A stretch of DNA of 64,000 nt, from positions 186,001 to 250,000 of the forward strand of contig RSEE01000076.1 in NCBI GenBank assembly GCA_003971905.1, given 5' to 3'. This DNA comes from Moniliella sp. 'wahieum' (Eukaryota; Basidiomycota; Moniliellomycetes; Moniliellales; Moniliellaceae). The position numbers and the translations under genes are program-made. The notes beneath the pieces are model-generated. The model was given only the letters and a program-made list of their open reading frames with translations. It had not been told where the DNA came from and did no database searches. Below, piece by piece: positions 806-60,490 of the stretch; the first letter of the stretch is position 1, and each line of letters begins with the position of its first letter.

Positions 806-833
806 GCGTTTAACGTTTAACGTTTAACGTAAC
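806..833. repeat. 7-bp tandem array, AACGTTT unit
   Basis: Three to four units of AACGTTT lie in tandem. Each unit is the palindrome AACGTT plus one T. A shorter relative is at 764-775. Related arrays occur at 32,238-32,285, 41,030-41,065 and 42,520-42,548. Confidence 0.85.
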
Positions 834-888
834 CTGCAACGGGTCACATGCGACGTCATAGAGTCACGCGTCATTGATTTTCACCCAG

Positions 889-914
889 TCATCGATCATC
901 GATCATCGATCATC
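889..914. repeat. 7-bp tandem array, ATCGATC unit
   Basis: About three and a half units of ATCGATC (palindrome ATCGAT plus C) run without interruption. A partial second array begins near 957. The build is the same as for the AACGTTT and ACATGTG arrays: a palindromic hexamer and one spacer base. Confidence 0.85.
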
Positions 915-1365
915 CGCGCCCGCCTGCCTCAGCGCCTTAGCGACAGCGCTGAGGCTCATCGATCATCGTGCATCGAAGGGGATCAGATCGATCAGCGCGC
1001 TCAGCCTGAGCGCTGCTCAGCCGCTCAGCCGCTCAGCCTTCAACGTTCATCCGTTCATCCTCTCATTCGCTCAACGCATTCGGTCTGGGATCCGAGTAGT
1101 GATCGATGATCCAGTGTTACATGTTAGGGACTCTATACTCAGTACATGTCAATCCGACCGAGGACAGGCCGAGGGCGGCGTGTCCCAACTGGCTGCCTCT
1201 GTGCGATTACAAAAAAGATGACTGTTATTTTCCCGCCGAGCCCGTTGGAGGTGCTTGCAGGTGCGGCGAGGTGCGAGGTGCGAGCTCCAGATTAGCGCCT
1301 CTAATTTTATGCGCGTCCAGCACGCCCAGCTTCTAGGTAACCAGTGTCGCGCGTAGCATGATGCA

Positions 1366-1430
1366 TGTGACCTGTGACATGTGACATATGCATGTGACGC
1401 GTGATGCGCGTGACGCGCCCCGCGTGAAGT
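1366..1430. repeat. degenerate 7-bp array of CATGTGA / GCGTGA units
   Basis: The stretch alternates ACATGTG-like units with ACATATG, ACGCGTG and GCGCGTG variants. Spacing is close to seven bases throughout, with GTGA kept as a linker. It looks like a mixed member of the palindrome-plus-one family. Confidence 0.7.
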
Positions 1431-2103
1431 GTGCATCGATTAATGCCCTGTGGAATTATATCAATCGATCGTCAGTGACATTCTCGCAGCCCACCTCCAC
1501 TCTTTTTGGCTTGCAAAACATTCCTGCGATCCCAGAGATTGAATATCCGGGCGTTCCAGGACATCCCGCCAACGCTCAACACGTGCAACGTGCAACGTTC
1601 AAAACAGTGAACTATGGCTAACGACAGCCATAATATCTCGCCGCTGTCATTGAACCCCCGCCACTGCGAATCCTCCATTGCGGTGGTATACATTACAGAG
1701 AAGATGCTTACTTAGTACCTACGCCTTGGCTCAAGGGGGTACGGTGGTGCAGTACAAGAATGGTAAGGCCGGTAAGGCTCACATGTCACATGTATAATCC
1801 CACGGTCGAAACCCATCACAAGAAACAACGTTCACAATCATTCCGTTCAACCACAGCACCTGCAATGGCTAACCACTACATCCGACACTCCTTGCGCGCC
1901 AACAGGGATGCAGAATGAGACTCACTGGATCGCGAAGGCGTTAAACGTTAATCCCGTGGTCGCTTGGTTAACTTGTTACCTCTTTTCCACGCGAATTTAT
2001 GATCGTTATCGTTGTCTCTTGTTTCCGCTTTCCTTGGTACATATACATATTAGGGTTCCTAAATGAACCTTACAATCCTCATAATACCAGCAAATCATAT
2101 GAT

Positions 2104-2203
2104 GTCGGGTTAGCTCAGATGGGAGAGCGTGAGATTGAAGCAGTCTTCAATAGCCGATCCTTTGGATTCCTCAAGGTCCCCGGTTCGATCCCGGGACACG
2201 ACA
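2104..2203 (+). tRNA. tRNA-Phe (GAA), intron-containing
   Basis: The gene folds as a tRNA: acceptor strands 2104-2110 and 2196-2202, a D-arm with GCTC/GAGC, and a T-arm CCCGG-TTCGATC-CCGGG. The anticodon loop reads TTGAAG, giving anticodon GAA. An intron of about 28 bases follows position 37 and contains CTTCAA, which can pair with the anticodon loop as in other eukaryotic tRNA introns. Two pairs are imperfect, acceptor pair 5-68 and anticodon-stem pair 31-39. They could be real or base errors. A T-run follows at 2205. Confidence 0.88.
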
Positions 2204-2718
2204 CTTTTTGGGACTACTCTTGGCACATGTTACACTATTTTGTCTAAACCGCTCATTGAACGTGAACGCGGGAACGTTGAACGTGTTCAACACCCCCCGA
2301 GTCATCGTGCCACCCCGCCTATTCGCGCTTACGAGTTACGAGTTACTAGAGTTACTTCGCATTTGGACATCTACCAGCAACGAGTTGAGCGCTCGGTGAG
2401 CCGCGTTGCACCAACCAACCGGGTGAAGACCGGCTAGCCGAGCCAACCAACCAGTTTGATGCTATCCACCACAAACACCCAAACACCCAAACACCTAGGC
2501 CCAAAGGGCGGCAAGGGCGCACGCTTGCGCGTTCCGATTCGGGTCCGGGAGGATGCATTTGCAGTTGCATTAGACTCGGCTTTACAGGGAGCACATGGAA
2601 AAAAGGGGGCAAGAAAAGGGGGCAAGAAAAGGATGAGAAAAGGATGAGAAAAGGAGGAGAAAATAGAGGGTCACCCTTACCGGCTACCAGCGCGACGGCG
2701 CAACGGCAGAGCGGTGGG
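2204..2718. other. spacer between tRNA-Phe and the SNF5 gene
   Basis: No gene is visible. A short AACGTG/AACGTTG-rich patch lies at about 2,264-2,295. A purine-rich GAAAAGG tandem at about 2,595-2,665 sits just downstream of the stop codon of the minus-strand SNF5 gene. Confidence 0.6.
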
Positions 2719-6662: not shown

Positions 6663-7159
6663 GCTTCAAGCGGCAAGCGGCCAGGCGCAGCGCAGCTGAT
6701 GGCGTCTGCCGCCTCCCCCGCTCGGCTCCCAGTCCAGTCCGAACAGCGCCGGCCCAAAGGCTGGCCGCCAGCTCACCGGTAGCGTCAGCCATCGTCGCTT
6801 CAAGCTTCACTAGTACTAGTCGCTGTCATGGCACTCTCCACTGGTTGCGCTGTCCACCACTGCCCCGTGCTGCCCTGGGTAGGGTTGCCTGCTGCTCTCT
6901 TCCGCTGCCCGCTCCCGCCTCTTCACAGGGCTACGTCCCGCACTCGCTAGTCGCAGTGGCGGCCGCCCCCGTCGCCAGACCGTGGCCTCGCTGGAGCAGT
7001 CGTGCAGGAGAGCGGGGGAGGACATAGGCTTCCTGCTGCTTACAACACACTCAGCTGCTTCGATCCGCCGGGCGCATCTGCCTCCGCCTCTGTCACCTCC
7101 TCCTCGCTGTTCGCGGGGGGGGAGGGGAAGTGTTAACAGGCGGCTTATGGTACACCACC
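6663..7159. other. spacer upstream of the SNF5 gene
   Basis: I see no supported gene. The interval holds the 5' flank of the minus-strand SNF5 gene and the 3' flank of the minus-strand Vps68-like gene. GC-rich open frames are present but lack recognisable motifs. Confidence 0.5.
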
Positions 7160-11363: not shown

Positions 11364-11693
11364 GCTGGGCCTGCTAAGCTAATTGGGTGGGATCGCCGCG
11401 CGGAACCAGCTGCGCGCCGCGTTCCGCCCTGCGCCCGCCGGGAGGATGTAGTGGCTGGCGAGACAGAAGACTGAGGTGAGGCATTATTGGGCTTGACGCA
11501 GCAACCGGCCGCAGCCGCCATTGCCAGTTTCAAAAACCCATCGTCCGTCCACTTTAACGTGGCAGTAAATTTGACTCGGCCCCCCTTCTTCTCCGCGCCG
11601 CTCCGTCCAGCCCGTGTCACCGTCACCCCTGCGCAGTCCAGTCAGGAAGCGCATTCGTCCCCGGCCTCTCTCCCACACACACCCCCCCCCATC
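11364..11693. promoter_or_regulatory. shared promoter region of exchanger and glutamate 5-kinase
   Basis: The 330 bp lie between two divergent start codons. The kinase side ends in a C-rich run just before ATCATGAC. I see no clear TATA box and no binding site I can name. Confidence 0.5.
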
Positions 11694-13054: not shown

Positions 13055-13326
13055 GCTACAACAATCTCTCCTTTGACCTTTGACTCTTCTGTTCTCTTCC
13101 TCGTTTCATTTTTACCTTGGCAAGTGGAGCAATACCATGCAGTGCGCCTCTCCCCTCGCCCTGGCCTACGCAAACTCTGGACGGCAAAAGTCACCGGACC
13201 ATAAGGCTGTGTGCGAGAGAGGGAAAGAAAAAAAAATCAGCAAAAGGCAAAACAAAAAGCAGAACCTACGCACCTCGGTAGTGAGCGTCTGTTGGTTGTT
13301 GAGGGGTTCTGCGCTAATACGGCCGT

Positions 13327-15838: not shown

Positions 15839-17160
15839 GTCTGGACAGGAGTCGTGGCAGCGCTGTGTGAAAGCTCTGATGGGATGGGTAAGAAGAAGGT
15901 GCAGTTCAAGGTCAAAGAGAGGGGCGTTTCTTATTTCTTCCCTTGTTCGTCGAATGTCATGCGTGCACTACTATACCTTGGTCTGGTTCTCACGGTTCAG
16001 CTCAGCTATGTTGATGTTTGTACGGCAGAGGCGCATGCCTGCCCTGCCTGCCAGCGCCCCGCCGGAGCATCCCGGGCGTCGGGGCTTGGGCGGCTTAGCC
16101 GGGATTAATGGAGAATGGTTGTCCGCGTGTGGCTAGGCCGGCGTGGATGTGTCTGGGCGGGATGGGGAATGGGCAACTCATGGGTTTCACAGTGGATGGA
16201 GACTCTTCGAGACCCTTCGAGACCCTCCTACATTTGATTTTTGGCGATTTAATCAGATTGCAGAACAAGCAAGCCGGCGCAACGGCACGCGCGGGCACGC
16301 CAGGGCACTGCCAACGGAGCCGCGTTTGCAGGAAGGCCACAGGACCCTTCTTGGACCCTACACCCTCCGGCCACTCCCGACACGGACCACCACGAGCACA
16401 CAGAACCGCAGTGTGCACCGGTGCCTGCGTACACTCGTCTTGAAGCCAGAGCCAAGGCCTCAGGTACTCGTTACTCAGTAGCTCAACATCACCTCCGTGT
16501 ATCAACAGCGCCATCAGGCATCAGCGCATCGGCCAGCGCTGAGCTCAGCACCTCAGTGCGCCACCAGCGCGCGTCACGCGCATCAACATGCTTGAAGCTT
16601 GACATGTGACATGCTTGACATGGGACATGTGACACCCCAACAATTACTCACCATCTCAGCACCAACAGCAGCACACTACCCAAACCGAGTGTTCTAAACG
16701 CTTTCTCCGCAATCGCAACCGCGCGCGCGGGCGCCCGAACACATTTACTGGCTCAGCGTGCGCTCAACACGTTCACAACCGTTACAAGAACAAGTTGCAT
16801 ATCACTGTGTTCCGTGTTGCACACGCTTTTTACGCTACAGCAACATCCATATCCTTGACTTTTTGCTGTGTCCTCTTCCATCCCTTCCCCCCACCCCTTC
16901 CCACCACCCTTCAAGCTTCATTCAAGATTCTTGTACCAACCAGTTACCTGTTCTCGGGACCAACAAGAGCCAACCTACCTGCCAAAAGAGACGCGCGAAG
17001 CGGGTACGTGTTGGTCCAGGATGGGCCTGGGGAGCAAGGCAGTGGGGGATAGGTTAGCCATCAGGAGATGGGCATGTTCAAGTGGCATGCGCATACAAGC
17101 ACCGAGCCTAAACGTTTTCCACTGCCGACCAAAGTCGCGGCCATGGGCAGCACTCTGTAC
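15839..17160. other. spacer with mixed repeats
   Basis: No gene is recognised. GACATGTGACATG-type 7-bp repeats are at 16,599-16,634. Plus-strand ORFs at 16,108-16,514 have no identifiable domain. Confidence 0.5.
16599..16634. repeat. 7-bp array of ACATGTG-like units
   Basis: Several ACATGTG and ACATGCT/ACATGGG variants lie at seven-base steps. Similar arrays are at 31,990-32,025, 42,035-42,115 and 60,457-60,490. Confidence 0.75.
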
Positions 17161-18470
17161 TTATGGCTCTGTGTACTCTGGGTTGGACACCCAACCCAAG
17201 TCCAGCCAGCAGCTAAACGAGCCAACAAGGGACAAGAAGAAACAACAACAACAAAACCTGATTTTGGGAAACCTACTGAGCCCCACCAAGATCGATCGAC
17301 CAATCAAGGCCGAGTATGGGGAGGGCATAGATCTTGAGTGTGGTGTCCCAACCAAACAGGGCAGGGTCTCAGGAAAATGCTCGCCAAACCCACGCGTCAA
17401 GGTCGTCCCAGGCGAAAGGACAATGTTGGTTTACAAGTCCCGTCGCAAGTCCAGGTTGACACGGAACACTCTGTCGTACACCGCCTGGTGAACAATAACT
17501 GGGTACTGGAGCCCGACTAGGTCCGGGTTGAACAGGATCTCCAGCTCACGGAAAAGGGTTCGGGCCCGAGCCACGCAACAGGTACCGTGACCGGGTACCG
17601 GGTACCCGGTAGCGCTCAGCGTCATCCCTCGCCCCACCCCACTCCTCTCCCCGTCCCTCAGGGGGAAGGATACCATGCACCTTGGCGCTGTTTCCATCTG
17701 GGAGTTTGAATTCTTGGGTTTCGTGCGAAGTGCCAACATTGGTTTCTGCCTTGGCCTGGTTGAAGGGGGCTTAACCGCACTGTTCTTCTTTGATTGTCGC
17801 ATCACATCTTTATCTGCCAAGAGGTGCGGAGGCTCTTGATCCGTACCCTGTGGAGTCTTGCATCGGCACCTGCTCCACCACATCCCTCCTGGCCACGTCG
17901 ATCCTGCGCATAGCGTGGGGCATCGAGAACTAAGCCGGTAGTGGGACCTGTCGAGAGTAGAGGGTCAAGATGGCTTGGATGGAGGTAAAGACCACAAGTA
18001 CGTTGACCGTTTGGAAAGGCACTTGGGCTGCAACCTCGCAGGTTTGGCGTGGGTTGAGTGATGAGTACTGAGTCACAGTACTGAGCGGAGCCTGGGTGAG
18101 CAACACGGTATATGCCTCCGACAAACCGTCTTCAGTTCCTCGTCGTCAATGTGGGTCAAAATGTTTCCATGTCTTCCCAGTCGGTCATCAAACGTCATGT
18201 TCCATTGGGTAGCGGACCTGGTGCAGCCCGCGCAACTCTTCTGCCCGACAACCAACGAACATGTATCGCCCCTCTATGCCGCCCACCATGACGCGCGGGT
18301 ACTTGGGTCGGCCCACAAACTAAAGAAGGGAAGAAACAGTTGGGCTGCTCCTAGCCAGCAAAAAACCACTCTTAATGGTGCCTGCTCCATTGTCGATGAC
18401 GACACGACGGCTGGTTGGTGGGCAGTGGCGTCGGCAAAGTTGCCGGGTGTGCTCAGGGATGGGTGCTGTT
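17161..18470 (-). pseudogene. ARP1/centractin-like actin-related gene, broken
   Basis: In order on the minus strand I can read: VVIDNGAGTIKSGF (~18,400), VGRPKYPRVMVGG (~18,300), RYPMEHDV (~18,205), DWEDMETF and HIDDEELKTV (~18,140), FTSIQAILTLYS (~17,975), MRRIDVA, ELEILFNPDLVGL (~17,530), DLDLRRDL, TTLTRGFGEHF (~17,400), GRSILVGLS, and after a probable intron WVSNPEYTEP (stop near 17,161). This order and wording fit ARP1, the dynactin filament subunit, better than actin itself. Besides single-base frameshifts there is a foreign insertion of about 24-27 bp at 18,058-18,087. About 16-18 conserved residues (the SGDGVTH phosphate-binding region) are missing near 17,920. Introns seem kept, so it is not a processed copy. 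Those two lesions make a pseudogene more likely than bad sequence alone. Confidence 0.68.
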
Positions 18471-19349
18471 GTTGGGGGAGGAGCGGCACAGGAGCAGCAA
18501 GCACTCCGGTGGATGCACACCTGTCTCCCCTAGGCTGGTAGGCTCAGTGGGACGTAAGAGGGCGGTACGCCTCACGGCTTTAAGCTTTATGGGCCTTGAG
18601 CCTAAGCCTTGGGCCGTAGGCCTTGTGAAGCTAGCAGGGGTGGCATTGGTGCTACGCTGTCTCCCACTCCGCCTGTAAATTCCGCCGGCACGAAGTGCAA
18701 TTAATACAGCTCCTGCAGCCATGTCGATGACTGATGAACAGCTTCATCGACTTCATCGTTGGACTTCAACTTCATCCAAGTTGATAACCGGATGAACTCT
18801 AAGAACAGTGAATCGATGAACGTGGAACTTCAACTTGAACGTTGAACCGATCAGATGATCGATAACTTCATCGTTGACTCAATAAACTTCATCGGGTTCA
18901 ACTCACCGCGTGTCTTCGTCCACATGGTACACGTTGAACGTTGAACTTCAACGTTGAATTGAGGGCGAAGAGGCTGAAGCCCGCAACCACGTTTATGGGC
19001 AGCACCAGGCAGCGAAACTCTATAAGCAACAAACAACTTACCCGGGGGAGAAAAAGAGGGAGGGCTAGGGAAAATGGTTCGTTGGATAGGAGACGGGGCC
19101 CGAAGATGAGACCGTTGCACAAAAGACAAGAAGACTGGGATGGAACTCAACCAATAGGCAAAAGTGTATCGCATCAAGGATGCCAACCAACTGCTTGCAA
19201 CAGCTCTGGACCCTCAATGGAGGATGGGAGGAAATGAGTAGAAAGGTGGAGGAAAAGAGTAAAGGGGATGGTTGGTTCCGGGACCAAGCTGCCTCTGCCG
19301 AGGTTGCTCAGTCAGGGAGCTTTGGGCAAAGTGCTCAGCGGCTCGGCCT
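18471..19349. other. spacer rich in AACGTTG/AACTTCAACG motifs
   Basis: Between about 18,740 and 18,960 the sequence is built largely of short GTTGAAC, AACTTCAAC and CATCGAT-type words, including AACGTTGAACGTTGAACTTC near 18,933. No coding sequence is recognised. Confidence 0.6.
18925..18960. repeat. 7-bp array of AACGTTG units
   Basis: Two to three AACGTTG units (palindrome AACGTT plus G) are followed by an inverted AACTTCAACGTTG segment. A looser relative lies at 18,805-18,850. Confidence 0.75.
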
Positions 19350-23857: not shown

Positions 23858-25548
23858 CGACTTCGTGATCCGGGCGGTTATGGAGACAGCAACTATGGCT
23901 GCTGAAGGCGCTGAAGTATGTACGAAGGACACGATCAGAGTAGGGTAGGCGATCGATTGCGGAGAAATAGGCGTTTGGTGGTAGGATGAGGTCGATCAGG
24001 GCGAGAGGAAGACTACTCAGAAAAAAGAAGACTACTGTAGTTGTCGCTGGGGCTTACGTGGCTGCGCGCGCGCCACCAGCCTTCTCGGAGTCCGCGCAGC
24101 CCCGGGGGCTGGTGAGGCTGAAAGTGCTTAATTCACGACCGATGAAGTCAGCCGCCGCAACAACATGCAGCTAACAGTGAGTAGTGGGCGCCATAGCTAT
24201 AGCGGACCATAGCACTTTTAGTATAGCGCTTAGCGAGCAGCCATTTTTCACAACGTTTTTGTTCACTCCATCACCTCGTCTGTTGCTTTGAGCACCTAGT
24301 TTTGTTTACATGTTGTACCTGTGCATGTATGGCGGATCGCTAGCTGACTTGCTGACCTGCGCCTGCGACTGGCCGCTGTGCGAATATAGGAACAATTGAC
24401 GTGCAGGACATGGACCAAGGGTCTGAGGACCACAGCCCCCTCCGACCAGATCACTTTGATCTTCTTTACACATGCGGGCGCCATGCCAGTATCCCTATCC
24501 TCTCTGGCCTAGTGCCACACTCTCCTTTTAAATTATCCTTTTCTGCTGTTTCTCACTGCCAGGATTCAACGTGCTTAGCGCAGCGCTCAAGCTCAACTCA
24601 GCTCCAGTCTTCCCTTCAAGCTTCACCACTGCATAACTGTTCTTCGGACGTCGCTGGGGAACCACGATCATCGATCAGTAGGACACAGCCTATCGACTAT
24701 TCCCTTTGCATTTGTGTCAATGGAGGGGTATATATACACGTGATTCTGAGGCCGTGGGATTTACACCCAGTGGCGAAAACCCGATCAGGGGTTGGAGACA
24801 AGTTAGTATAGTGGTGTGACGATAACAGGCATAGGGGCAGTGTTGTTGCGTGGCGTTCTGCCGCGCTCTCGCGCACGCGCGCTCAGCCACGCCTGCGCCG
24901 AGCTGCTCCGAATCGGAGTACTGTCCCAGCCTGTGCCGCGGCCACTGCCACGCCAGCTACCCCGCACCAGCACAACACAGAACATACACAGCCATCTGCT
25001 GCCCGTGCGAACAACACGCAGGCGCAGGCCGTTACTCATTTGCAACTTAATTTTGATAATTGCCGCTGCGCGCGCATTGCGGACGGCGGGAAACCATGCG
25101 GGCTTGGTGCAGAAGACGGCCTGCTCTCGCACAGACAGCAGCACGGTAACCTCGTTACATGCATTGCACCGCCTCCCTGCGATGCTTAGATCTGTTGAGA
25201 GGTATGGACTTCTTATACCGGGTCGGGAGATGGCAGGGTATGTACCTGGATGTATACTCCTCGTGCAGCACCGCTTGGCTCCCATGATCGAATGTTAATG
25301 CTGATCTCCTCAACGTGTTCAACCGTTCAGCGTAATAGTAACAGCCTCGCAAACGCCTCATCTCACCGTTTTCAGCGAACGACAGGCGTCCAACCTGCCG
25401 CGCTTTGTGCTCGTTCCATTCGGCTCTCTCTTCAAAACCACCACCACATCTTCTTGCTTGTGTTCTTTTACCGCACGGCTCTTCATCTTCCTTGTCCCCT
25501 GCGCGTGGCCTTTTCTTCTCTCTTCAGTTGTTTTCAAGCCACCATATC
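23858..25548. other. spacer upstream of the glycosidase-like gene
   Basis: No gene is recognised. An 8-bp inverted repeat CACCAGCC/GGCTGGTG lies at 24,074-24,114. The last 250 bp are CT-rich and probably hold the promoter and 5' UTR of the next gene. Confidence 0.5.
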
Positions 25549-29276: not shown

Positions 29277-30734
29277 TCGACTGCCTTCCAAACTGGCACA
29301 ATGTTATGCCATCAACGCATTCTGTGTACGTCAGCCATAGGATAACAAGATGTCCGTTCCCCCTGAAAGGGGGGGGGGGGGGATTACTGCATGCACAACG
29401 CGATGCACCATAGAACGAGTCGCTGTGAGCAAATTTGCAGCTCTTTTGATGTCACGACTGAAGATACTACTGCTGTCACCCCATCACTGCCTTACACGGC
29501 GTTCTCTCTGCTGTTGTGGATGTTGGCCGGTAATGAATGTTGCTTCTTTTGGACTTCGCTCGAACCGCATGCGCTTTTCTTCACGCGAGAATGGCGGGTC
29601 TCCTGATTGGGCTTGGTCGTGAAATTCGGAACCTGTATTCCTCTCCATCTGTTGCTTACCCCCTGTGCTCGCCATCTGTGACTTCGTGGGCGTCACGCGT
29701 CACCTCGTTCCGTTCTGCCAGGCGGGAAGGTTCGTATTTGGTCGTGCTTCTCGTACCTCTCCAGCGATCTCGGTGTTCTCGGTAATCTCCAAGAGTCGGA
29801 AGAAGAGCGTAAGATGATAACTCCCACGGCAGGCAACCCGGTTTTCGCTGAAGTATGACGCTTTCGCACCCTCATCCTCGTTGGTCTTCTCCTCCTCTTC
29901 CTCTTCCTCTTCCTCTTCCTCTTCCTCTTCCTCTTCCTCTTCCTCTTCCTCTTCTCTTCCTCTTCCTCTTCCTCTCCTCTTCCTCTTCCTCTTCCTCTTC
30001 CTCTTCCTCTTCCTCTTCCTCTCCTTCCTCTTCCTTTTCCTCTTCCGAGTTAGGGAGCTACCAAGTCATACCTTCTCCCCAACAGGAGATGGACGAGCGA
30101 TGCAATTAATCTGACTACCCCACAATGCTGTACTCATCCGAGCTCTTCATCCCTGATCTCTGTGCTACAGACCAAGGGGCGGGCAGGACGATTGATGCGT
30201 AGGAGCACACGCTCTACGGCGATTTTGATCCGCACAATGATGCTATCCATTGTGACACGCGCACTCGACTCCCTGCTGCGGGGCGATGATTGACACACGT
30301 GGATCGACTTCGCCGCCCTTTTTTGTCTGAGTTCCCCAGGCTTGGCCGGCTCAAGCCTCACTTTGCCCTGGCCAGTGAAGCGGAGTACAATATGCTTTCG
30401 CTAGAGGCAGTAGAGTGCATGTGCCAACCTGCTCCAATGACTAGTGACTAGAGTGACTGCACTCCGCATCACGAAAACAGCTGGGAGACAAAGGCGAGCC
30501 CCGCTCTGTCATCCATGCTCTTGCCTCCTTTCATTCCGCTCGTGTGGGAGCCACCACGTCGCCTCAACCCGATCCCTCACCTGCATCACCACCATTCAAT
30601 AACATTGATGAAAGAGTACGTGGCTCGAATAGTGTACAGAGGGGTAAGAGGAATAGCTGGGTAAGTAAGGAAAGGTGTGCGCTGCAGAGGGGGATCTTCC
30701 AAAGGCCAGGCGAATGGTCGGTGGGGGACACCGG
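29277..30734. other. spacer with long pyrimidine microsatellite
   Basis: A 13-base G run lies near 29,370. The CT-rich hexamer array at 29,886-30,050 dominates the middle. I see no supported gene in the rest. Confidence 0.5.
29886..30050. repeat. (TTCCTC)n polypyrimidine microsatellite
   Basis: About 165 bp of nearly pure pyrimidine strand built of TCCTCT hexamers, with a few phase slips (for example CTTCTCTTCC near 29,952 and 30,022). Plus-strand frames read poly-Ser or Leu-Pro repeats, but no start or domain suggests coding use. Confidence 0.95.
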
Positions 30735-31670: not shown

Positions 31671-32237
31671 GGCTTGCCAAAGTCTTAGGCTGGCCTGGTG
31701 CCGGTGCCATTACGTCAGCCGCCCATCTCCTTACGCGTTACGGCTGTCCGTTGCCTCGGGGTTTCGCCCAAGTCTCAGCGCTTAGCCTGAGCGCCTGAGC
31801 GCCTCAACCTCCCTCAAGCTTCAAGCCTCCAGTCTCCTCCTCCTCCTCCCGGGTGAGTCCGAAGTGATGCCGGTGATGGACACGACACGAGCAGTGCCCT
31901 GGGCGTTGTTAGTCCCTTGCATATTGATGCGCCTGGCTCCGCTGGGTCGTAGAACGTGTGGATCACTTGATGGCGCACGTGACTGTCCCGTATCACATGT
32001 CACATGCAGTACTCACATGCTGTCACTAAGGCTATAGGAAGAGGAGACGCGCTGCACCATGCACACCATGGCACCACCACACTCGCTCGGCAAACGTTTG
32101 TGAACGAATCGGGCTAACAATCCGCGCAAGGCATGCACTTGCAGCTTGCAGGACGATCCCTGAGGGATCTGAGGCCGAGGCCCGAGGAGATCACCCGGGT
32201 AACCCTAATAAAGGGGAGAGCATATGGTTTCGCGTTA

Positions 32238-32285
32238 CGCGTTAACGTTTCGGTTTAACGTTTAACGTCGAACGCGTTTAACCGA
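32238..32285. repeat. 7-bp array of AACGTTT / ACGCGTT units
   Basis: Tandem ACGCGTT and AACGTTT units, both palindromic hexamers plus T, form a mixed array and end in a second ACGCGTTT. Confidence 0.75.
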
Positions 32286-32707
32286 GAGGATATACAGCCT
32301 GTGCTTCCATACATATCAAGGTCAAACTCAACGTGGTATGCTTTACGCGTTACGCTACGGAAGATTGTATACTGGGCAAGGTGGAGAGGAAACACAGTCA
32401 GAGATACAATAGCTTCGTACAAGCTCCTGACGCTAATTTGACATTTGTATGTATAGCGATGTTCTTCTCCCGACGCGGCTCTCCTCCTCTCCCCGGCCCT
32501 GGTCTTCAATGCACGTCCGATGACGCTATTAGTCATGGGAAAGTACTGGTGCGGATGATGAGCCTGGGTCCAATACATGCCTTTTTTGTTTTGGTCGTTT
32601 GCCACGAACCAATATCCCCTCAACTTTTACCTTTTTGGCCTTCTTGATAGCAAGTTTTTGTTGGCATTATAGTTTCTTGGTAACGCCTAAGGTTTCTTGA
32701 TAGAAGA

Positions 32708-33050
32708 GGACGTTCTTCCCTCTGGTTTTGACGAGACGCGAGGATACTACGGTACCAAGACAGCGGGCAAGATATTTGCGCATTGGAAGAATTTGGCTAC
32801 TGAGAGTCTCAATGGAAATGGTTCCTCGCTCGGATGTCTACCACGTTCATCCGTGTCCACACGCGCTTCCTAAGGTACGGGACCGGATGGCGACCACCGG
32901 AGGGTCCTGATATCCTGGCGATCCCCCTGGTTCCTTAATCTTGGTGGCTCTTCCAAGTAACCCCCGCAGATGAACGGTTCGGTTTAGACGTAGCGTTCCC
33001 CCTGTCCCAGCCTTAAGTTCTGTCAATGGTATGGATGCAGAAGAGGATGA
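32708..33050 (+). repeat. repeat copy A: degraded copy of a coding dispersed repeat
   Basis: This stretch matches the reverse complement of 44,324-44,675 over its whole length, both in the coding part and in the flank past the stop. With one frame change near 32,800 it reads FAHWKNLATES, then SQWKWFLARMSTTFIRVHTR and RPPEGPDILAIPLVP with stop TAA. That is clearly the same protein tail as in copy B. The differences are mostly substitutions, many synonymous or conservative, so the copies seem to have diverged as protein-coding paralogues before this one broke. Confidence 0.88.
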
Positions 33051-33765
33051 AGAGAAGACGCCGAAGTATACTACTTACAATTGGGAAATGATCAGGAAAA
33101 TGATGGCTCGAGTCGATTAGGAATCGATCCCTGAATTTCTAGCAACCATCATTCATGCATCATGCATAGTGACCCTGGCACATTGAGCCCCCTTGTCTCC
33201 TATCGCTCTAGCTGTCTACCACACTCCCTATACGATCTTCCCCTACTAACGGCCTCATCCTCTCCTTGAATAGCATCCCCATCTTCCCTCTCTTTCTCTC
33301 TCTCTCAGTCCATTATAACTCTTCACAATGGACCTCATGATTTCGCCTCTTGGCCAGGGAAACGAAACCACAATTTACTCAAAGTTAAGCCTATATAAAC
33401 GGTTGTCCGTCTCGGCATGCCACCATGGTCACCCGTTGCTGCTGTATCGATCATTGACACCCCTGGTCAAGGGACCACCTACGTGTTATCAAAAGCGGTC
33501 CCTACCCACTCGGCCATCGTGTGCAGAACATTCAAAAAGCTACTTCCACAAGCCCCTATGAGGGATGTTACATCTTACATCTTACGCGCGCCAATGGTGA
33601 TGGCGCGACGACAGCGCATCCGGGCATGGAGCTGGAACATATCCATTTTTGAATGCATCGAAAGATGCGGGCATAACAAGGACGTGCAACCGACTACGAT
33701 CCCATACCGAATGGGGATGTTTTTGCCGAACACACACGTCCTTACGAGAGGGCAAAGACAACACC

Positions 33766-34904: not shown

Positions 34905-34936
<32 letters not shown>

Positions 34937-38490: not shown

Positions 38491-40579
38491 ATGGACGATG
38501 CGCTGCTGGGCGCCCAGCTCCAAGCTGCCGCCGCGGAGCTCCTTCCCCACCGCCCTCCCTCGGCCGGGCCCAACAGCAACCCCTCTTCTCCCTCAGTCCT
38601 CCTCGCCTCCCCACCGCCCTGGCCCAACTCGGCCTCGACACGCGCACCAGCGACGCCGATGCACTGCGTCTGCTGAAGCGCCAGCAATCCATACGCGCCT
38701 CAGTCCGCCGCCGCTCTCCTTGCTGCCGGAGGGCGTCCGGCTCCCGCCATCGCGCACTCCCGACATCTTTGCCACCGCCCTCACCTCTTAATCTCGCTAG
38801 CCCCCTGTCCTCTGCGTCTCCTACCTATCCTGCCTCTTCCCGGCTCGTGCGCCTGCCCAATGATGGTCCCGATGCTCCTCCATCCCGCACGTCAACCCCT
38901 CAGGTTGCACCCCCTCATCGCGCTGAGACGATGCCCGATGAGCGACTGTATGCTTCCACCGCACTCGGCGTGCCCCGCACCCCGAGTCCACGCCTGCCGC
39001 GTGCCCCTTCTCCCGGCTCGCCCAGCCACCCAAGTCCACTGTCTCTGCAGCAGAGTCCGCGGTCCCAGCGAGATGAAGAACGGGGACACGCCTCACGTCT
39101 CCCTATGGCCACGTACCCTTCCGCCCCGGACCCGATCGGCCTGGCAGCCGAACCCCCATCGGTCGCACCAAGTCCCCCCTCTTGGACGACGCCTTTAAGG
39201 GCATCTGGCTCAACTCGCGGGGTGAAAAAGTGGTGGAGGGGCAGGTGGTGGGCACACTGGACTTGGCGCCCTACCGATCCCGTCCTACCTCGCCTCAGTC
39301 CCACCACGGTCTGAGTCCCGCTTTCACCCGGCTGCCCTCGCCGCTATCGAGCGACAAGTCGTCTGCGTGGAAACTGTTGGAAGAGACACCAGGCTCGCGC
39401 GACCCCCACCTCTCAAGCTCAGCATGCGTATACCCCCCTTTTTCACCCACACTTTTCCCCATGCCATCCCCGGTCGACGGGGCAGCCTGGACTTGAGCAA
39501 CCCGACGGCCGCGCGCAATCTTCTAGTCCCACAAAGAACGATAAGAGAGGCAAGTCCAAGATGCCGTTCTGCTTCAGTCCCATCCGATGCCTGCGGCAGC
39601 TCTGCGAGCACGGATATTCTCAGCCCCCTGCACCATCGTCGGATACCTTACTTTTACTGCCCGACCCGGAGCGTGGCGAGCGTGATTCGCGTTCGGTGCC
39701 TACCACACCCCACCTGGGCCGGTCGAGGAGCACTACGCCTGTGCCCCTTTTGTCCGACGGGATGTCTTCGTCGGGTGTGGCGTGGGCGTCGGAGTGGAAC
39801 CGTCTTCTTCTCAGGTTGGTAGCCGCTGCCAACCCACCACAACCCGACTCGCAACCCGACTCGCAACCCCACGATCGCCTCGAACCTCATTCTCGTCGTA
39901 GCTCTGCCTCATCGGCTGCCTCCTCTCTCGTCTCGCTTCCGGTATCGGTGGTGACAGTTGCATCTGAGGGTCCGTTTGCCGAGCCCCGTCGGCGGCCAGC
40001 CAAGTGGGCCACGTGGTTTGCCGGGGTGGGTACCAACCTGTTTGGTGCGCGTGCGCCCGCTCCGCCGGCTCCGTCCGCTCCCGCCGCCTCGGGCGCATAT
40101 TTACCCACGAGGTGCGCATCCGGGGCTGGTCCGAAGTAGGTGGGGGGTGGGCGGGTTCGTGGTCTATCATGTTGTGATTGTGCTCAAGACGGGTCGAAGA
40201 TTGAGTTGGTAAAGCGGTACTCGTCGTTTGTTCGGCTGCGGCAAGCGTTAGCGACGGAACGGCCGGATGCGGCGGGGCAGACTACCACTCGATCGGCACG
40301 TCCGCGTTTGCCCGCCTTGCCTCCTAACACCCGCTACACAAGTATGCGGCTACGTATCTCGAGACGCGACGACGTACGTTCTGCTGCTCTGTTGTTGAGT
40401 GCTGACTAGGGACTAGTTATTGGTTATTGCTGCCAAGTCTGCCCTCTGCCCCGTACTGAGTACTGATACTGACCTTGATCTTCCCCGGCGCACTCCAAAC
40501 GTGGCTTAACACAATCATGCTGGACCCGGTTTGGGCCTCGTGCGCTTCGTTGCAAGAGTGGATTGTGGATGCTGGGTAA
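38491..40579 (+). CDS. PX (phox homology) domain protein
   Basis: Probable phosphoinositide-binding protein of endosome or vacuole surfaces. The ATG at 38491 gives MDDALLGAQLQAAAAELLPH. A long disordered Ser/Pro-rich region follows across three frames, including DDAFKGIWLNSRGEKVVEGQ at about 39,185. The PX domain is C-terminal: EVRIRGWSEV, FVVYHVVIVL, DGSKIELVKRYSSFVRLRQA (the R-Y-S/D-F phosphoinositide site), PRLPALPP, and ATYLETRRR at about 40,345. An intron begins GTACGT at 40375. After it come ALQTWLNTIMLDPVW and SLQEWIVDAG, completing the PX fold, with stop TAA at 40577. Its acceptor is unclear, and the intron contains a GTACTGAGTACTG palindromic word. Among yeast proteins the arrangement is nearest Ypt35, but this protein is far longer. 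Confidence 0.8.
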
Positions 40580-41295
40580 GACCGATAAGAGCCAAGAGCG
40601 GGTTCGGCCGAGACGGCACCCCGGCTGCCCACACGCGCGGTAATAGTGACACGTGATACGCATGCTCTGCCTTTTGGCGTTCGGATCCGAGTACCGATTC
40701 TTTACCCCTTAGATATCCCCGCCTAACCTTGTTGGTTCTGAATTGGACTGTCGACGTTGCGTTGATGATGCAAGATGCATGATGATGATGACGGATGGAT
40801 GGATGGATGGTGGATGCTGGAGAGTTCTGAGATGACGGATGCTCGATGCACCCCTTGAAGCTTGACCTCCATAAGCTCCCATGCATCCTGGTCGATGGTG
40901 TGTGTAAGATGAGGCCATGGGCGAGGGGTGCGATCGAAAGGTGACCGTGAGAGGGCGAGGAGGCCGTCACCGCGTCACCTGAGAGCGGTCGGGATCGTCG
41001 AGAACGTTACGGCGTTTGCGTAAGCGTTTAGACTTTAACGTTTTAGCGTTTAAGGTTTAACCCCCGCATAGCTACGAGCTTGCAAAATGGGCTGGAGACC
41101 TGTGCACTCAAAATGTGTACAAGAGAATCTGAGCAAAGTGAGAGAAGCTTTTATATAAGTTCTGATGTCAGGCCGGCTAAGCGCTAATCCAATCTTACGT
41201 GCCAGAGGGAGAGAAAAGGGAGAAGGAGAGGGAGAGGCGCGCCGCTGTCTGGCTGGATTCGGTAGGCTCGGGTCGCAGAACGCAGCGGCTCTTCA

Positions 41296-41353
41296 CTTAG
41301 CGCTTACTGGGCTTTTGGCGCTTAGCGCTTAGCTTACCGGTTACCGGTTACCA
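41296..41353. repeat. adjacent AGCGCTT and ACCGGTT 7-bp arrays
   Basis: CTTAGCGCTTAC, then GGCGCTTAGCGCTTAGC, then CCGGTTACCGGTTACC. Two different palindromic hexamers, AGCGCT and ACCGGT, each in 7-bp tandem with a T spacer, lie end to end. Confidence 0.85.
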
Positions 41354-42034
41354 GCGACTTGGCTGGTACAACCATGCCAACTGAGTGGTGCCACATGCCA
41401 TTTCGCATAATACACTCTAACAGATGGCGAAGATAATGCTAGAGATGCTAGAGATGCTAGAGATGCTACACATTGGGGGGGGCCGTGGGGTGTAATGGCA
41501 CCGGTACCCCAAGCGTGTGGTCCCCCGTTCCGTGCATTCCTTCCAATATTCCTTCCTGGAGGGCAGGAATATTCTCTGGATATAGCCTCTGTAGCTCATG
41601 TGCAATGCCAAATACACCATCATGTCAACTGTGCCCGCAATGCTCTCTGTCTTCTACAAAGAAATGGAATAGATGTAACAGATGGACAGAACAGATGGAA
41701 CAGTTGAATGGAACAGCAGAACGTGTGCGTGGATGCATCTGGCATCTGGCATCTCTATCTCCCCATACGGGGGGCAGCACTACGCCCCTCTGACAACGCG
41801 AGCTTCTCTGGTGCTCGGGACTCAGTACTCAGTGTACTCACACGCGTTTTTCCGGGGGCTTTCCTTTTCGGGGAATTGAGGTGGGGGGAGCCGGTGGCCT
41901 TGTCCCGTAGGGTCTTTCTAGGACGCCCGCAGGTCTCGCCGCCATCGCCGCGCCCATGTCCGGGAGAGTGGGCTGGTGCGGTGTGCTGCATGATTGGCTG
42001 GGATCACGATCACGCGTCACGCCGATCATGATCG

Positions 42035-42115
42035 ATTACGTCGATCACATGGGACATGTGATGTCGCAGCCCGTGTCACGTATATCACATGTCACATGTC
42101 ATATTCATATGGCAT
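42035..42115. repeat. 7-bp array of ACATGTC / CACATGG units
   Basis: Several ACATGTG and ACATGTC units plus CACGTAT and CATATGG variants, many at seven-base spacing, run through this stretch. The related CATATG palindrome lies at its end. Confidence 0.75.
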
Positions 42116-44323: not shown

Positions 44324-44412
44324 AGGGAAACGCTATACGCCTCTCTTCTCTTCATCCATACCATTGACAGAGCTTAAGGCTGGGACAGGGAAACGCTACG
44401 CCTAAACCGACC
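44303..44412. repeat. 62-bp direct duplication at the edge of repeat copy B
   Basis: The 26-base core from GCTTAAGGCTGGGACAGGG through AAACGCT occurs twice, starting near 44,310 and 44,372, with shared CTCTTCTTCATCCAT flank. The unit is the 3' flank of the dispersed repeat. Confidence 0.9.
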
Positions 44413-44675
44413 CGTTCACCTTGCGTGTGTTGCTTAGTAGCGCCACCCCTCCGTTAAGGAACCAGGGGAATCGCCAGGAGATCAGGACCCTCTGGTGCCC
44501 GCCATCCGTTCCCACACCCGAGGTAGTGCGTGTGGACACGGATGAACGTGGTTGACATCCGAATGAGGAACCATTTCCATGGAGAGTCAATAGCCAAACC
44601 CTTCCAGTGCGCAAACATCTCTTGCCCGCTGTCTTGGTTCCGTAGTATCATCGCGTCGTCAAAACCAGGGGGAAA
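44324..44675 (-). repeat. repeat copy B, homologous to copy A in inverse orientation
   Basis: The stretch is homologous to 32,708-33,050 in reverse orientation. It covers the end of the small ORF (44,454-44,855) and about 110 bp beyond its stop codon. Confidence 0.88.
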
Positions 44676-44855
44676 ACGGCTCTTGAGTGCGTCCCCGTCC
44701 TTGGCGTTCTTGTCGCATTCTGCTTGTTCCAGCAGCCGAAGCAGCTCCTTCCCCCGGCGTTCCAGAGGCGTCGCGGTGCTGTAATGCACCACCCTCCGGT
44801 ACGCACTCTGCGCCTCCTGCGTTCCCGTGTCGCGCAGCGGGTGGTCCACCTCCAT
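44454..44855 (-). CDS. small protein encoded by repeat copy B, unknown function
   Basis: A 133-residue frame starting MEVDHPLRDTGTQEAQSAYR and ending GPDLLAIPLVP. The central part RRGKELLRLLEQAECDKNAK is likely helical, and the aromatic-rich part SPWKWFLIRMSTTFIRVHTH is the best conserved against copy A. I recognise no domain. That substitutions against copy A largely keep the residues (I/L, R/H, D/D) argues it is or was a real coding gene. It may be an exon of a longer mobile-element or multigene-family protein, because the homology begins inside the frame, at about codon 61. Confidence 0.55.
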   Translation of the reverse strand: MEVDHPLRDTGTQEAQSAYRRVVHYSTATPLERRGKELLRLLEQAECDKNAKDGDALKSRFPPGFDDAMILRNQDSGQEMFAHWKGLAIDSPWKWFLIRMSTTFIRVHTHYLGCGNGWRAPEGPDLLAIPLVP

Positions 44856-49881: not shown

Positions 49882-50608
49882 TGGGGGGGGGTACAAGCAG
49901 ACGGAGACGAAGGGGGAGGGGGGGCGGAGGGGCAGGCGGCGAGAGAGGGAGCGGGGGTTTATATCTGTGTGGTACTTGGGGGGCCGAAGAAAGAGTTCGG
50001 TGAGCTGGGTATTGACGACGGAGGACCGGGTCCTGCGATAGTCGAACGCCCGTCCGACCGGGCCAGCGTTCGCAGGGACACAGCGCTGGTGCGGCGGGCG
50101 GGGGCTGCCGCCTGCTGCCTTCGCGTTCGCTGGGCACAATACACACACTGGCCTCGTGCGGCGCCCGGCAGCGCTTTGCTACCAGCGGCGGTGAGGTTAG
50201 AGTGCATCTGGGCGCAGCGCCAGTCTTGCCTGGTGTGCCGGCTGGCGCTGAGCCTCAGCCTTCCCTGCATTCCCCAGGCACGGGGGCACTCAGCGGGCCT
50301 GCCGCTTCCCACGACACTTGCAGTACTTGCAGGGCTCCAGCAAGTCCCATCGCTGGGGCCGCGGGCTAACTCCTTGCAGCCGCCCCTAGCATTTCAATGT
50401 TGCAGCTGGCCACCTGCCCCAGTAATCATTTCATTTCGATTTAATTTCGCCTGTTTTTTCGCTCCTTTTTTGACGCTGAGCGCAGGCGGCGTAGCCGTGG
50501 CTGGTGGGTGGATGATAGGATGGATCGAGGGAGGGATCGATGGACAGACGCATGGCGGCGGGCAGATGGATGCCCGACAGACCGCTACCATTCGCCAGCC
50601 TTCCCCCC
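49882..50608. promoter_or_regulatory. shared 5' region of GMC oxidoreductase and E2 genes
   Basis: The 727 bp lie between divergent starts. A G-rich run (49,885-49,892) flanks the oxidoreductase start. GATGGATCGAGGGAGGGATCGATGG words lie near 50,518-50,545. A long plus-strand frame crosses the region but has no recognisable protein until the E2 domain begins. Confidence 0.5.
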
Positions 50609-57200: not shown

Positions 57201-57559
57201 GGGCACCGGGCGCAATCGTTGGATGTGGGCGGACGGGTGCCCGCCCGTGCCGAGTACCAAGCGTTCGATGGCGCGCTGTACGACCCGCCGTTTGATCCCA
57301 CCTTGGACCAAGGCCAGCTTGGTTACGAACCGTTCGAGCCGTATGACGCTCCTGCCCTCGGCCTCCACTCGGGCCCGAGCGTCTTGCCTCCCCTCATGAG
57401 TTCCAACCTGCCGAGACCGAGTTCCCCGATGCCCAACAAATTGTACGTTTGCGCTCCTCCGCTCCTCATCCCTTTGCTGCAAAGGAGACTAACATGGAAC
57501 CCACCCGCGCTCAGTCGGAGATGAACCGAGCGATGCAACTCTGGTCCCTCAATCCTTGA
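54276..57559 (+). CDS. multi-KH-domain RNA-binding protein (Khd4/bicaudal-C-like)
   Basis: Probable mRNA-binding regulator, cytoplasmic. Conserved parts: NGLETDTCELDCTLLNILGG, AHLVYITGPSSGVTRAKEML, CKLDWLLLHKRDELRCIAID with a GTHISFPPLG strand, HRDFIW followed by GKVNKIMKLANVQVKYDTF (a KH GxxG loop), FHVPETYHKRIIGVGGKNIQ then RIMKRYGVYVKFSS (the clearest KH domain), FPPRETALDEVTIYG, EFTILTDILRREFNLRLSFL, and a disordered tail with (Gln-Ala)n and Pro/Ser runs. The last intron is 57443-57514, and the final exon reads SEMNRAMQLWSLNP, stop TGA at 57557. The protein resembles the fungal KH family that includes Ustilago Khd4. The start is uncertain because the N-terminal 170 codons are Pro-rich and shift frame. 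Other frame changes lie near 55,135, 55,315, 55,590, 56,300 and 56,700. Confidence 0.82.
56895..57005 (+). repeat. hexamer repeat encoding (Gln-Ala)n/(Lys-Pro/Leu)n in the KH gene
   Basis: CTCACG, CTCAAG and CCCAAG hexamers run in tandem. In one frame they read His-Ala/Gln-Ala, in another Lys-Leu/Lys-Pro. The same dipeptide type is found in the SNF5 gene 51 kb away. Confidence 0.8.
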
Positions 57560-58099
57560 GCTTATAGCATTCCTATCGTACCCGCCTATCTCCCCCCGCG
57601 ACCTGTCTCCCGCCTCGTCTTTCTCTCTCTCTCTTTCTCTCTCTCTCTCTCCCGTTGCCCGTTGCCGTTGCCCGTATTGCCGTTACCAGGATGTGGTTTA
57701 CCCTCTGATTCCCCCCCCTATGCGTCTACCACGGAAGCTAGTTCCTTTTGATGCCCCCAATCTCGGTTGATCAATGATCGTTAAATGTCCTGGGGCTTGT
57801 CCCCCTAGTCCCCCCCCGGCCTTAACCGGTAACCGTTAACCCTCCTAGCCCCTCTTTGTACGCCCTCCGGAGTCTGCTTTACCTGATTCCCATCCTGTCG
57901 CAGCTTGGGACTCCTCCCCGCTGCCTGGCGAGTCCAAATGGACCACGTCGAGCCCGAGTGGTCAGAACTTTGGAGAAGGCTACAACATCTATGCATATTG
58001 CAATCCTCCTCACCAACCTGTTAAACGATTGGAACGTCATTAATCATTAGGCTTGTAGACGATCGCCTGCCATCATCGATTCGGATCTACATTTAACAT
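57560..58099. other. intergenic region between convergent KH and GAD genes
   Basis: A CTCTCTTT tract (57,620-57,655) and CCGTTGCCGTTGCC words (57,650-57,690) follow the KH gene. An ACCGGTAACCGTTAACC word lies at 57,825-57,842. No gene is recognised. Confidence 0.6.
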
Positions 58100-59748
58100 T
58101 TAGCACGCGTGGCCGTAGCCCGAGGGCTTGCTGTGGGCATGGTCATGCTTCTGGGCCGAGGCACGAACGTGCTTGCCTGGGTGGAACAGGTCGGAGCGGT
58201 GCGTGCGACCTGTGCCCGTAGCGTTGGCCGCCTTGGCCGCCACGGTGGCCGAGGGATTGAGGGCAGCTGTGGCGACATGGTCGTCGGTCAAGGCGTCGGT
58301 GACATCGAGCAAGTCCTCGACCAAGCTGACCACCATATCTTCGCTCATTGAGTTGCGGACGACGATGCGGAGAATTTCCTGGTCAGTGAGCGGTTCGGGC
58401 AACGGGTAGTTGGGTACGATCCAGCCTTTGCTGCGCAACATGGTTTGGACCCACTTTTGCTGCAAGTGCGGGTACTTGGTACGGAACTCCTTGGTCCAGC
58501 GGAACGCGACAACGGGCAAAGAAGGCTTGTAGTACCGCTTGGGCTTCGTCCTTGGTGGGGCGGTAGGAGCCTGGGCTAGGCTTTCGGAAACCACCTCGTA
58601 CACACCACTCTTTTCAATGGCACGGGCAAACATGCGCGCATTGCGCAAGTCGGCTTCGACCACTTGCTTGTACCCTTCCTGGCCCAACTTGATGAAGTTG
58701 TAGTACTGCACCACCATTTGGCCCGCCGGACGGGAAAAGTTGAGATTAAAGTCAATCTGGTCCGAACCGAGATAGGAGAGTTCAAACAACAGTTCCTTGG
58801 GCAAGTGGTCCGGCGTACGCCACACCACCCACCCCAATCCCACTGGCGCCAGACCAAACTTATGCCCGGACGAGTTGATGGACGCTACGCGCTTAACGCG
58901 GAAATCCCACTCGAGCTCCGGCCACGCAAAGGGCAACACGAACCCGCCCGAGGCCGCATCGACGTGAATGGGGATATCGAGTCCGGTCTTGGCCTGCAGG
59001 TCGTCCAACAAGTCGGACATCTCCTTGACCGGCTCAATCGCACCGGTGTAGGTGGAGCCAGCAATGACAAACACAGCAATCGTGTTTTCGTCCACCATCT
59101 CGATCGCCTTTTTGGTGTCGAGACGGTAGTGCGATTCCTCGCTAACCGGCACCAGGCGCAGTTCAATGTCAAAGTACTTGGCCGCCTTTTCCACACACAC
59201 TTGGGTGTTGGCACCGACAATCAGGTTGGGCTTGTCAGTGGGCTTGCCCTCGGCTTTGCGCCGTTGCTGCCACTGTTTCTTGAGCGCCAAAGCCCCCAGC
59301 ATGATCGCTTCAGAGGAGCCCGTGGTGGCCGTGCCCAGCGCACGGACCGTCTCACCGTCCTCGGAATGCGTTTTGGGCGCATGCCACAGATCCGCCACCA
59401 TCGACACACAGCGTCCGTGTAAGTTGATGGTGGAAGGGTACTCGTCCCCGTCGGCAAGGTTGATGTTCCAATGCTCTTGGAACAGCCGCTGGGCATAATC
59501 GTCCACCTGCGTCGAGACAAACGAGGCCAAGTTGAGGGTCGGCTTGCCGTCCCGCGCCAACTCGCCACGCACGGCCGAATACGCATCCACACCGCCACAC
59601 CGCGCTTGGGAATGTGCGTCTGGGGCAAACCAATGCTCTGGTACTTGCCAGCCAGGGGACCGGTGCCGTCGCGGTCGCTCAGGCGCAGGCCGTGTTCGGC
59701 AGCGAGCTCGAACAGGTCATGGGCATCGACGTGAGCAGCAAGTCCCAT
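58100..59748 (-). CDS. glutamate decarboxylase
   Basis: PLP enzyme converting L-glutamate to GABA and CO2, in the cytosol. The Met at 59748 gives MGLAAHVDAHDLFELAAEHG. One lost base near 59,597 shifts the frame before DAYSAVRGELARDGKPTLNL. From there the gene is open to its stop: CVSMVADLWHAP, TTGSSEAIMLGALALKKQWQ, IPIHVDAASGGFVLPFAWPE, SINSSGHKFGLAPVGLGWVV (the Lys of SGHKFG binds PLP) and SRPAGQMVVQYYNFIKLGQE. The C-terminal tail is rich in His, Ser and Lys and ends SKPSGYGHAC, a pattern I know from other fungal GADs. About 548 residues. No intron is needed. The start is shared by both the motif position and the usual length. Confidence 0.95.
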
Positions 59749-60217
59749 GTTGGTGCTTCGTCTAGTGGTGTGGGGATGAGGGGGGAGGGGGGATAGGGAC
59801 GCAGTAGGGTGGTATTACTAAGTACTTCTCAATATGGTATGCTTTGTGGGCGAACAACGCAACAATGGGGGCCGGGAGAGGAGGGGGGGGAGAGAGGAGG
59901 GCGGCGCACGGGCGGGGCCGGAGCGGCGGCAGGAGGTGTGTGACATGTGATGCGGCCCAAGGCCACGGACCACGACGCTCCCCACGCGTCCCCGTCCGTG
60001 GACCGGAGTGCACATTGCGGCATGTGGATGAGGCGGGCCGGTGGAGGGGGCGGCGTGATGGTCGATTGTGGAAGCGCAGGATGCGGCGTTTGGTTGAGCC
60101 GGCGATGAGCGGGGGATGCAGATGGGCAGAGGCGAAGCTGGCGAAGCTAGCGAAGCTTGAAGAGGGCCACGGAGTGCGGAGTGTGCGTAGTGAGTACGAA
60201 AACGTCTGTAGACTGTG

Positions 60218-60234
60218 GACTGAGTACTGAGTAC
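60218..60234. repeat. 7-bp array of AGTACTG units
   Basis: ACTGAGTACTGAGTAC consists of AGTACT palindromes at seven-base steps with a G spacer. The same word lies inside the ARP1-like pseudogene, in the PX-gene intron and at 41,820-41,841. Confidence 0.8.
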
Positions 60235-60456
60235 ATTTGCCGCTGGCCAGCAGCTGTGTGTGCGTGCCTGTGTGCTGACGTCACTGTCACATGTCACCCA
60301 GCCCGCCGCTGAACATTTCAGCTGGAGCTCATGCGTCTGGCTCTCGCACGGAGGCCACAGGGGCTGTGCACACTGGCCAGATGCGGCGATGCCCGCCGAG
60401 CCACTCGATTCCGAGGCGCTGCGACTGGCAGTAGGAGGGCAGTGTCTGGGGGAGCG

Positions 60457-60490
60457 TCCGTGTCACATGTCACATGCCACATGCCACGTG
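60457..60490. repeat. 7-bp array of ACATGTC / ACATGCC units
   Basis: ACATGTC, ACATGCC, ACATGCC and ACGTGTC follow one another at exact seven-base steps, so the period is kept while the hexamer mutates. Confidence 0.85.

Follow-up and report, generated by a model that had tools for sequence, protein, structure and literature searches.

The stretch analysed here, positions 186001-250000 of contig RSEE01000076.1 in the assembly of Moniliella sp. 'wahieum' (GCA_003971905.1; 69.5 Mb, 223 contigs) and hereafter called the window (64 kb), carries numerous short tandem arrays with a period of 7 bp and palindromic units. These had been noticed from the letters alone (the original prediction), and they are present at or near the positions given, some of which are imperfect; the ACATGT tandem placed at 42,035 sits at 42,085-42,101, and 18,058 shows a single TGAGTACTGA plus another AGTACT out of register, which is not an array. 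The window contains 51 exact period-7 arrays of 14 bp or longer, compared with 3.45 in dinucleotide shuffles, and 25 such arrays with a 6-bp palindrome in the unit, compared with 0.45. The preference proposed for period 7 over periods 6 and 8 holds for arrays with a 6-bp palindrome (period 6, 2 versus 0.8 in shuffles; period 8, 1 versus 0.0) but not for arrays as a whole, among which period 6 is commoner (85 versus 12.35) and other periods are also in excess. Shifting the register of the design first described, A(palindrome)T plus one base, shows what stays constant in it, a duplicated TNA triplet; we write the motif TNA-XYyx-TNA, with the same N in both triplets and a palindromic tetramer, XYyx, as the core.

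Static counts were made on 264 kb—the window and twenty 10-kb samples from contigs C1-C20—and compared with dinucleotide shuffles and with first- to fifth-order Markov chains derived from the sequence outside a coding mask. The mask is based on codon usage and covers 33% of the sequence and 3.4% of shuffled sequence; an earlier one (8% coding) was replaced as too strict. TNA-XYyx-TNA occurs 223 times, compared with 8.9 or 7.5 (two counts) in the dinucleotide shuffles. Five of the 223 fall within the coding mask and 218 outside it, where the Markov means are 3.6-13.3. The samples hold 2-21 motifs each, with the exception of L017, which has none. Palindromic cores are 25-fold in excess and non-palindromic cores 1.46-fold, bearing out the role first assigned to the palindrome. 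When the two triplets carry complementary N the excess is 1.6-fold, with other N it is 2.4-fold, and the other 15 flank pairs, tested with a palindromic core and the same N, occur at 0.25-2.8 times expectation. A core length of 4 gives 29.7-fold and lengths 0-3 and 5-9 give 0.7- to 5.7-fold; the signal at length 11 represents two units in a row. All 16 tetramer cores are seen, from AGCT at the top (42) to TATA at the bottom (1), and N is C in 100 motifs, G in 89, T in 21 and A in 13. Palindromic heptamer units mostly take the form A-XYyx-T plus one base, apart from a few others (for example CACGTG and CCATGG), and tandem repeats of every period from 5 to 14 are in excess. Genome-wide, three tandem copies of TCACATG are found 118 + 97 times (overlapping placements counted), and the pattern read backward is found 0 times.

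The 223 motifs group into 182 arrays, 147 with two triplets and 35 longer. In the two-triplet scars the two bases to the left equal yx in 74 and the two to the right equal XY in 70; both flanks match in 25, and either flank in 119. These matches indicate that the typical scar is nnTNA, then the reverse complement of nn, then nnTNA again. At the 94 one-sided scars, N is distributed much as in the background of TNA sites, and the surrounding bases, given TNA, are also near background, with a weak preference for C/G at -4, -5 and +4. Among the longer arrays the core is constant in 27 of 35, and in the other eight it switches while TNA is retained. New events on the triplets of an old array would repeat the core in three of four combinations and change it in one, which is close to 27:8; slippage may also add units to existing arrays.

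All three stretches that were queried have a counterpart of 89-93% identity elsewhere in the assembly; both haplotypes are therefore present, so that filled and empty alleles can be read. Window positions 23,822-52,566 were aligned with their counterpart on contig C1 (27,949 positions aligned, 894 of them mismatched, with 437 gaps), and two short haplotype pairs, L014/L042 and L021/L043, were added. In the aligned part the haplotypes diverge by 3.7% outside the coding mask and by 2.1% within it. Across both haplotypes there are 95 motif instances, of which 41 are shared, 21 are empty in the other haplotype, and 33 are unassigned by strict string match. Twelve single insertion events were chosen by inspection, all with filled and empty strings located. 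In these, nnTNA becomes nnTNA plus the reverse complement of nn plus nnTNA, or the mirror image, with the left nn copied in five, the right nn in six, and both in one. The events in the window are marked in Table 1, and those outside it lie at L014 1322 and 1871 and at L021/L043 564, 640 and 701 (that at 564 with one extra base). Rule-type events account for nine of the 18 seven-bp gaps in the three alignments—six flagged by a script and three recognized by reading (31814, 32253 and L021 640)—and the other three of the 12 sit within gaps of different length. One event is polarised by a paralogous pair, L044 being filled and L045, L021 and L043 empty. The range of cores (all 16) and the recurrence of one copying rule at 12 single sites agree with the original argument for one shared process rather than one drifting microsatellite.

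Neither flank matches in seven of the 41 shared instances, compared with none of the 21 that are empty in the other haplotype. Because all 21 keep a flank match and shared scars do so less often, scars empty in the other haplotype may be the younger, although this is suggestive only. Within 31 aligned motif instances 5 of 310 positions are mismatched, compared with 74 of 1955 in the flanks; this is approximately neutral, since the rate inside motifs should fall to roughly half when one haplotype has to carry an intact motif, and the two haplotypes give no sign that motif position or sequence is conserved beyond neutral.

The limits of the duplicated block were examined in two ways. Four haplotype alleles duplicate more of the target than nnTNA: CATAAGC-G-CATAAGC, GATGATG-CA-GATGATG, CTGAGG-CC-CTGAGG and GCTTAGC-GCTA-GCTTAGC; such duplications of nTNAnn or nnTNAnn make up two of ten eight-bp gaps, one of six nine-bp gaps and one of five eleven-bp gaps. 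In the 264 kb, maximal repeats that have a two-base mirrored filler and include TNA in the block come to 75.0 weighted counts. In 59.0 of these, exactly two bases precede TNA and zero, one or two follow it (44.0, 4.5 and 10.5, respectively; 0.4, 0.1 and 0.0 in shuffles). Others have fewer than two bases before TNA (12.2, a class in which other flank pairs score equal or higher), more than two before it (3.0), or more than two after it (1.5). These limits point to a frame nnTNAnn in which one end gains two bases (+2) and the other loses two, one or none (-2, -1 or 0). Tabulated in this frame, in cells that overlap so that a single scar may count in several, (-2,+2) holds 126 against 0.8, (+2,-2) 126 against 0.5, (0,+2) plus (+2,0) jointly 30 against 0.1, and (+2,+2) 0 against 0.0; for six control flank pairs the counts in the (-2,+2), (+2,-2), (0,+2) and (+2,0) cells are 0-15.

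Thus the insert duplicates its target partly or wholly (mostly 5 bp, sometimes 6 or 7), the mirrored bases mostly match, in reverse complement, the two bases at an end of one copy, and the two orientations are balanced (126 and 126 in the overlapping cells; five versus six single events). The reading that we favour, and to which we give about even credence, is that the arrays are micro-insertions from the repair of staggered double-strand breaks at a 7-bp nnTNAnn, with a transposase as the most likely agent. A 7-nt staggered break, filled in, would leave a copy of nnTNAnn on each side; each end would seal into a hairpin that is then nicked two bases from its tip, giving palindromic 4-nt overhangs; and joining of the recessed strand of one end with the overhang of the other would leave one end at +2 (P, or palindromic, nucleotides) and the other at -2, which would be the main product. 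The cutter would be a transposase with a 7-bp target duplication, from an element not seen in the stretches examined, and an old array would grow with fresh events, so that single scars become tandem arrays. A transposase is the likeliest agent because the footprints that hairpin-forming DNA transposons leave on excision closely resemble these scars. The genome contains one match to the SNM1/Pso2-type DRMBL domain (27.7 bits, E-value 1.3e-4), which we count in favour of the hairpin model.

In V(D)J joining, P nucleotides form even-centred palindromes of about two bases at the broken end; the scars described here differ in having a target duplication. Ds excision in Candida leaves short deletions or palindromic P-nucleotide insertions (PMC5873905), and the scars resemble such Ac/Ds (hAT) footprints in their one-sided short deletions and palindromic bases at the joint, which hairpins explain; here the joint bears palindromic bases copied from the end of a flank (223 motifs against 8.9; 119 of 147 scars; 9 of 18 gaps) and a target duplication of fixed length (59.0 of 75.0 weighted repeats, and the alleles). 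They differ in their 7-bp TNA-centred target, even-centred mirror, single dominant product, very many sites and the lack of an element seen. The centre of a Ds footprint is a single base, complementary to the one adjoining the element (PMC5873905); a hAT-type hairpin of this form was rejected, the palindromes here being even-centred. Seven-bp target duplications are made in basidiomycete hosts by hAT7 (rusts) and Kyakuja (Laccaria) (PMC12730594), matching the 7-bp limits of nnTNAnn, though most scars here keep only 5 bp twice; the comparison covers duplication length and host, and neither termini nor a transposase were found here. NuwaII PIF/Harbinger-like transposons target C|TNA|G with a 3-bp duplication (PMC4482050); TNA is held in common, but the block here is 5-7 bp, C/G adjoining TNA is not preferred, and there is no DDE_Tnp_4 match. 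A 3-bp TNA target duplication with a core derived from element ends was likewise rejected, as all 16 cores occur and their bases match the flank. Fungal Helitrons, which insert at TNAT|A (PMC5148889), were set aside because they make no target duplication, and the A/T mononucleotide palindromes of mitochondria (PMC7218506) are a different thing. No account of TNA-XYyx-TNA is found among the titles and abstract openings examined, a sample that leaves its absence from print unproven.

Several observations weigh against a transposase-made break. An inverted-repeat scan identified no element with a target duplication of at least 7 bp, although the scan requires terminal inverted repeats, which Kyakuja lacks (PMC12730594). 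Repeat families are few in the sample, and an nnTNAnn repeat is found at the junctions of none of the seven haplotype gaps of at least 49 bp. Searches for the Pfam families DDE_Tnp_4, hAT dimer, KDZ, CxC2, hAT RNase H and MULE gave 0 matches, but control genomes were silent for four of the six, so that these zeros do not establish absence; the zeros with silent controls include those for the hAT7/Kyakuja family transposase, of which no termini were found either. The +2/+2 product is missing, and the mirrors are even-centred, unlike those of Ds footprints. As to the alleles, the 12 single events were selected for fitting the rule, the empty site reads TNG and not TNA in two of them (31731 and L021 701), and one event only is polarised, so that the others could be losses via the 5-bp direct repeat. 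Among the 18 seven-bp gaps, three reflect a change of unit number in existing arrays and six are of other kinds (a C run and a GATGAAG tandem among them), and the majority of the 8-, 9- and 11-bp gaps do not fit the rule. Lastly, block limits are less clean with a one-base filler: three repeats against 0.2 extend three bases past TNA with two before it, and ten against 0.4 extend three past with none before.

Two other processes that need no mobile element are each unlikely, to a similar degree. In the first, a sequence-specific endonuclease or domesticated transposase would cut nnTNAnn directly and end joining would write the scar; the many scars without resident elements seen or transposase families detected (with weak controls) and their frequent polymorphism are as expected, but no such enzyme has been identified in this genome, and we know of no enzyme that makes a 7-nt stagger at TNA. 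In the second, replication template switching, a strand would pause after TNA, its last five bases would peel, snap back on the TNA loop and copy two bases, and the strand would then return and recopy the five. This yields exactly nnTNA, the reverse complement of nn, and nnTNA, on either strand and with the same N, and fits the empty inverted-repeat scan and the few repeat families. It fails for the 8-, 9- and 11-bp alleles and for the 10.5 static cases in which two bases follow TNA; no excess is seen for triplets closed by C-G, G-C and A-T (0.95, 1.19 and 0.25), and a fixed five-base peel has, to our knowledge, no known cause. The self-priming hairpin synthesis suggested originally is borne out in so far as the two neighbouring bases are copied in inverted form, and in a pure form on a TNA loop it accounts for the 7-bp scars, but it likewise fails for the rarer 8-, 9- and 11-bp forms, because nTNAnn or nnTNAnn is duplicated in them and the mirror point lies at the block end. 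Ordinary microsatellite slippage on chance palindromes could account for unit numbers that vary between haplotypes (three of the 18 gaps) and for the excess of short tandem repeats at periods 5-14, and may act on existing arrays, but as the source of the scars it is refuted by the empty alleles and has scarcely any probability: it is insensitive to palindromes and TNA (1.46-fold versus 25-fold), eight of 35 multi-unit arrays switch core and keep TNA, and single events begin from one copy of the block. Equally implausible is an early suggestion, that a DNA-binding protein recognises paired sites kept by selection, which we reject despite the 218 of 223 motifs outside the coding mask—an insertion of 7 bp would probably be purged from a reading frame anyway—because core and N are both free, arrays are often present in one haplotype and absent from the other, and conservation between the two haplotypes does not exceed neutral.

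Table 1. Arrays, units and insertion alleles in the window (window positions; strand given as "." for every motif or site).
Feature	Position	Other haplotype	Remarks
Array, three TTA triplets, core ACGT	810..826		
Array, four TCA triplets, core TCGA	889..912		
TGACATGTGA unit	1375..1384		
Mixed-core array TGA-AGCT-TGA-CATG-TGA	16593..16609		Triplet kept, core switches
TGAGTACTGA unit	18062..18071		
TGAACGTTGA unit	18935..18944		
Empty GCTTAGC (nnTNAnn)	24228..24234	GCTTAGC-GCTA-GCTTAGC	11-bp insertion, hand-parsed
Empty ATTCA	24564..24568	ATTCA-AT-ATTCA	Single event 24564
Filled CGTCA-CG-CGTCA, motif part TCACGCGTCA	29693..29702	Empty	Single event 29691
Filled TTACG-CG-TTACG	31731..31742	Empty, TTGCG	Single event 31731
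Filled TCAAG-CT-TCAAG	31814..31825	Empty	Single event 31814
TCACATGTCA unit	31993..32002		
TTACGCGTTA unit	32235..32244		
Filled GTTTA-AC-GTTTA-AC	32253..32266	Empty; GTTTAAC, itself a mirror	Single event 32253
Empty TGACA	33455..33459	TGACA-TG-TGACA	Single event 33455
TGAGTACTGA unit	40457..40466	One more unit	
Empty GATAA	40584..40588	GATAA-TC-GATAA	Single event 40581
Empty CATAAGC (nnTNAnn)	40870..40876	CATAAGC-G-CATAAGC	8-bp insertion
TTA arrays, cores GCGC then CCGG	41297..41350	Unit number varies between haplotypes	
TCAGTACTCA unit	41822..41831		Within 16-bp stretch missing from other haplotype
TCACATGTCACATGTCA array	42085..42101	Present	
GATGATA	50511..50517	GATGATG-CA-GATGATG	9-bp insertion, nnTNAnn duplicated
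TGAGTACTGA unit	60221..60230		
TCACATGTCA unit	60463..60472		

The gene content of the window includes an amino-acid kinase with a PUA domain, and a tRNA of 93 bases at 62637-62729 has an Rfam match but no ARAGORN match and is perhaps intron-bearing. A repeat of ~130 bp at 41489-41622 was rejected as a mobile source of the scars, since by its box likeness it resembles a tRNA-derived short interspersed nuclear element (SINE) and not an inverted-repeat element; the best 40 of 163 candidates genome-wide were scored, nearly all to this stretch. A repeat of ~330 bp is present in inverted orientation at 32704-33041 and 44353-44678, and again at L033 1112-1407. The other haplotype carries an extra 2,315 bp at 32028 and an extra 989 bp (with an adjoining 77 bp) at 33391, with no direct repeat at the junctions of either insertion. 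It also shows two gaps, 97 and 15 bp long, within the TCTTCC hexamer array at 29885-30046, and the run of 29 G at 34906-34934 is much shorter in it.

An insertion rule this tight and genome-wide, for which a single assembly supplies both filled and empty alleles, offers a direct readout of natural break-and-repair. Extrapolation of 223 motifs per 264 kb to the 69.5 Mb assembly gives an estimated ~59,000 motifs in both haplotypes. A transposon, were it their maker, would have left very many marks but hardly any copies, or none, in the stretches analysed; should no element be required, short palindromes and tandem repeats would be the product of a mutational process of a new kind. One reading, less likely than not but of appreciable probability, is that a resident domesticated transposase or an unrecognised nuclease cuts nnTNAnn across the noncoding genome without an element, with end joining writing self-copying 7-bp insertions. 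If so, a sequence-specific micro-insertion would steadily lengthen intergenic DNA and build its own tandem arrays. Either way, the process explains arrays that would otherwise be taken for binding sites or microsatellites.

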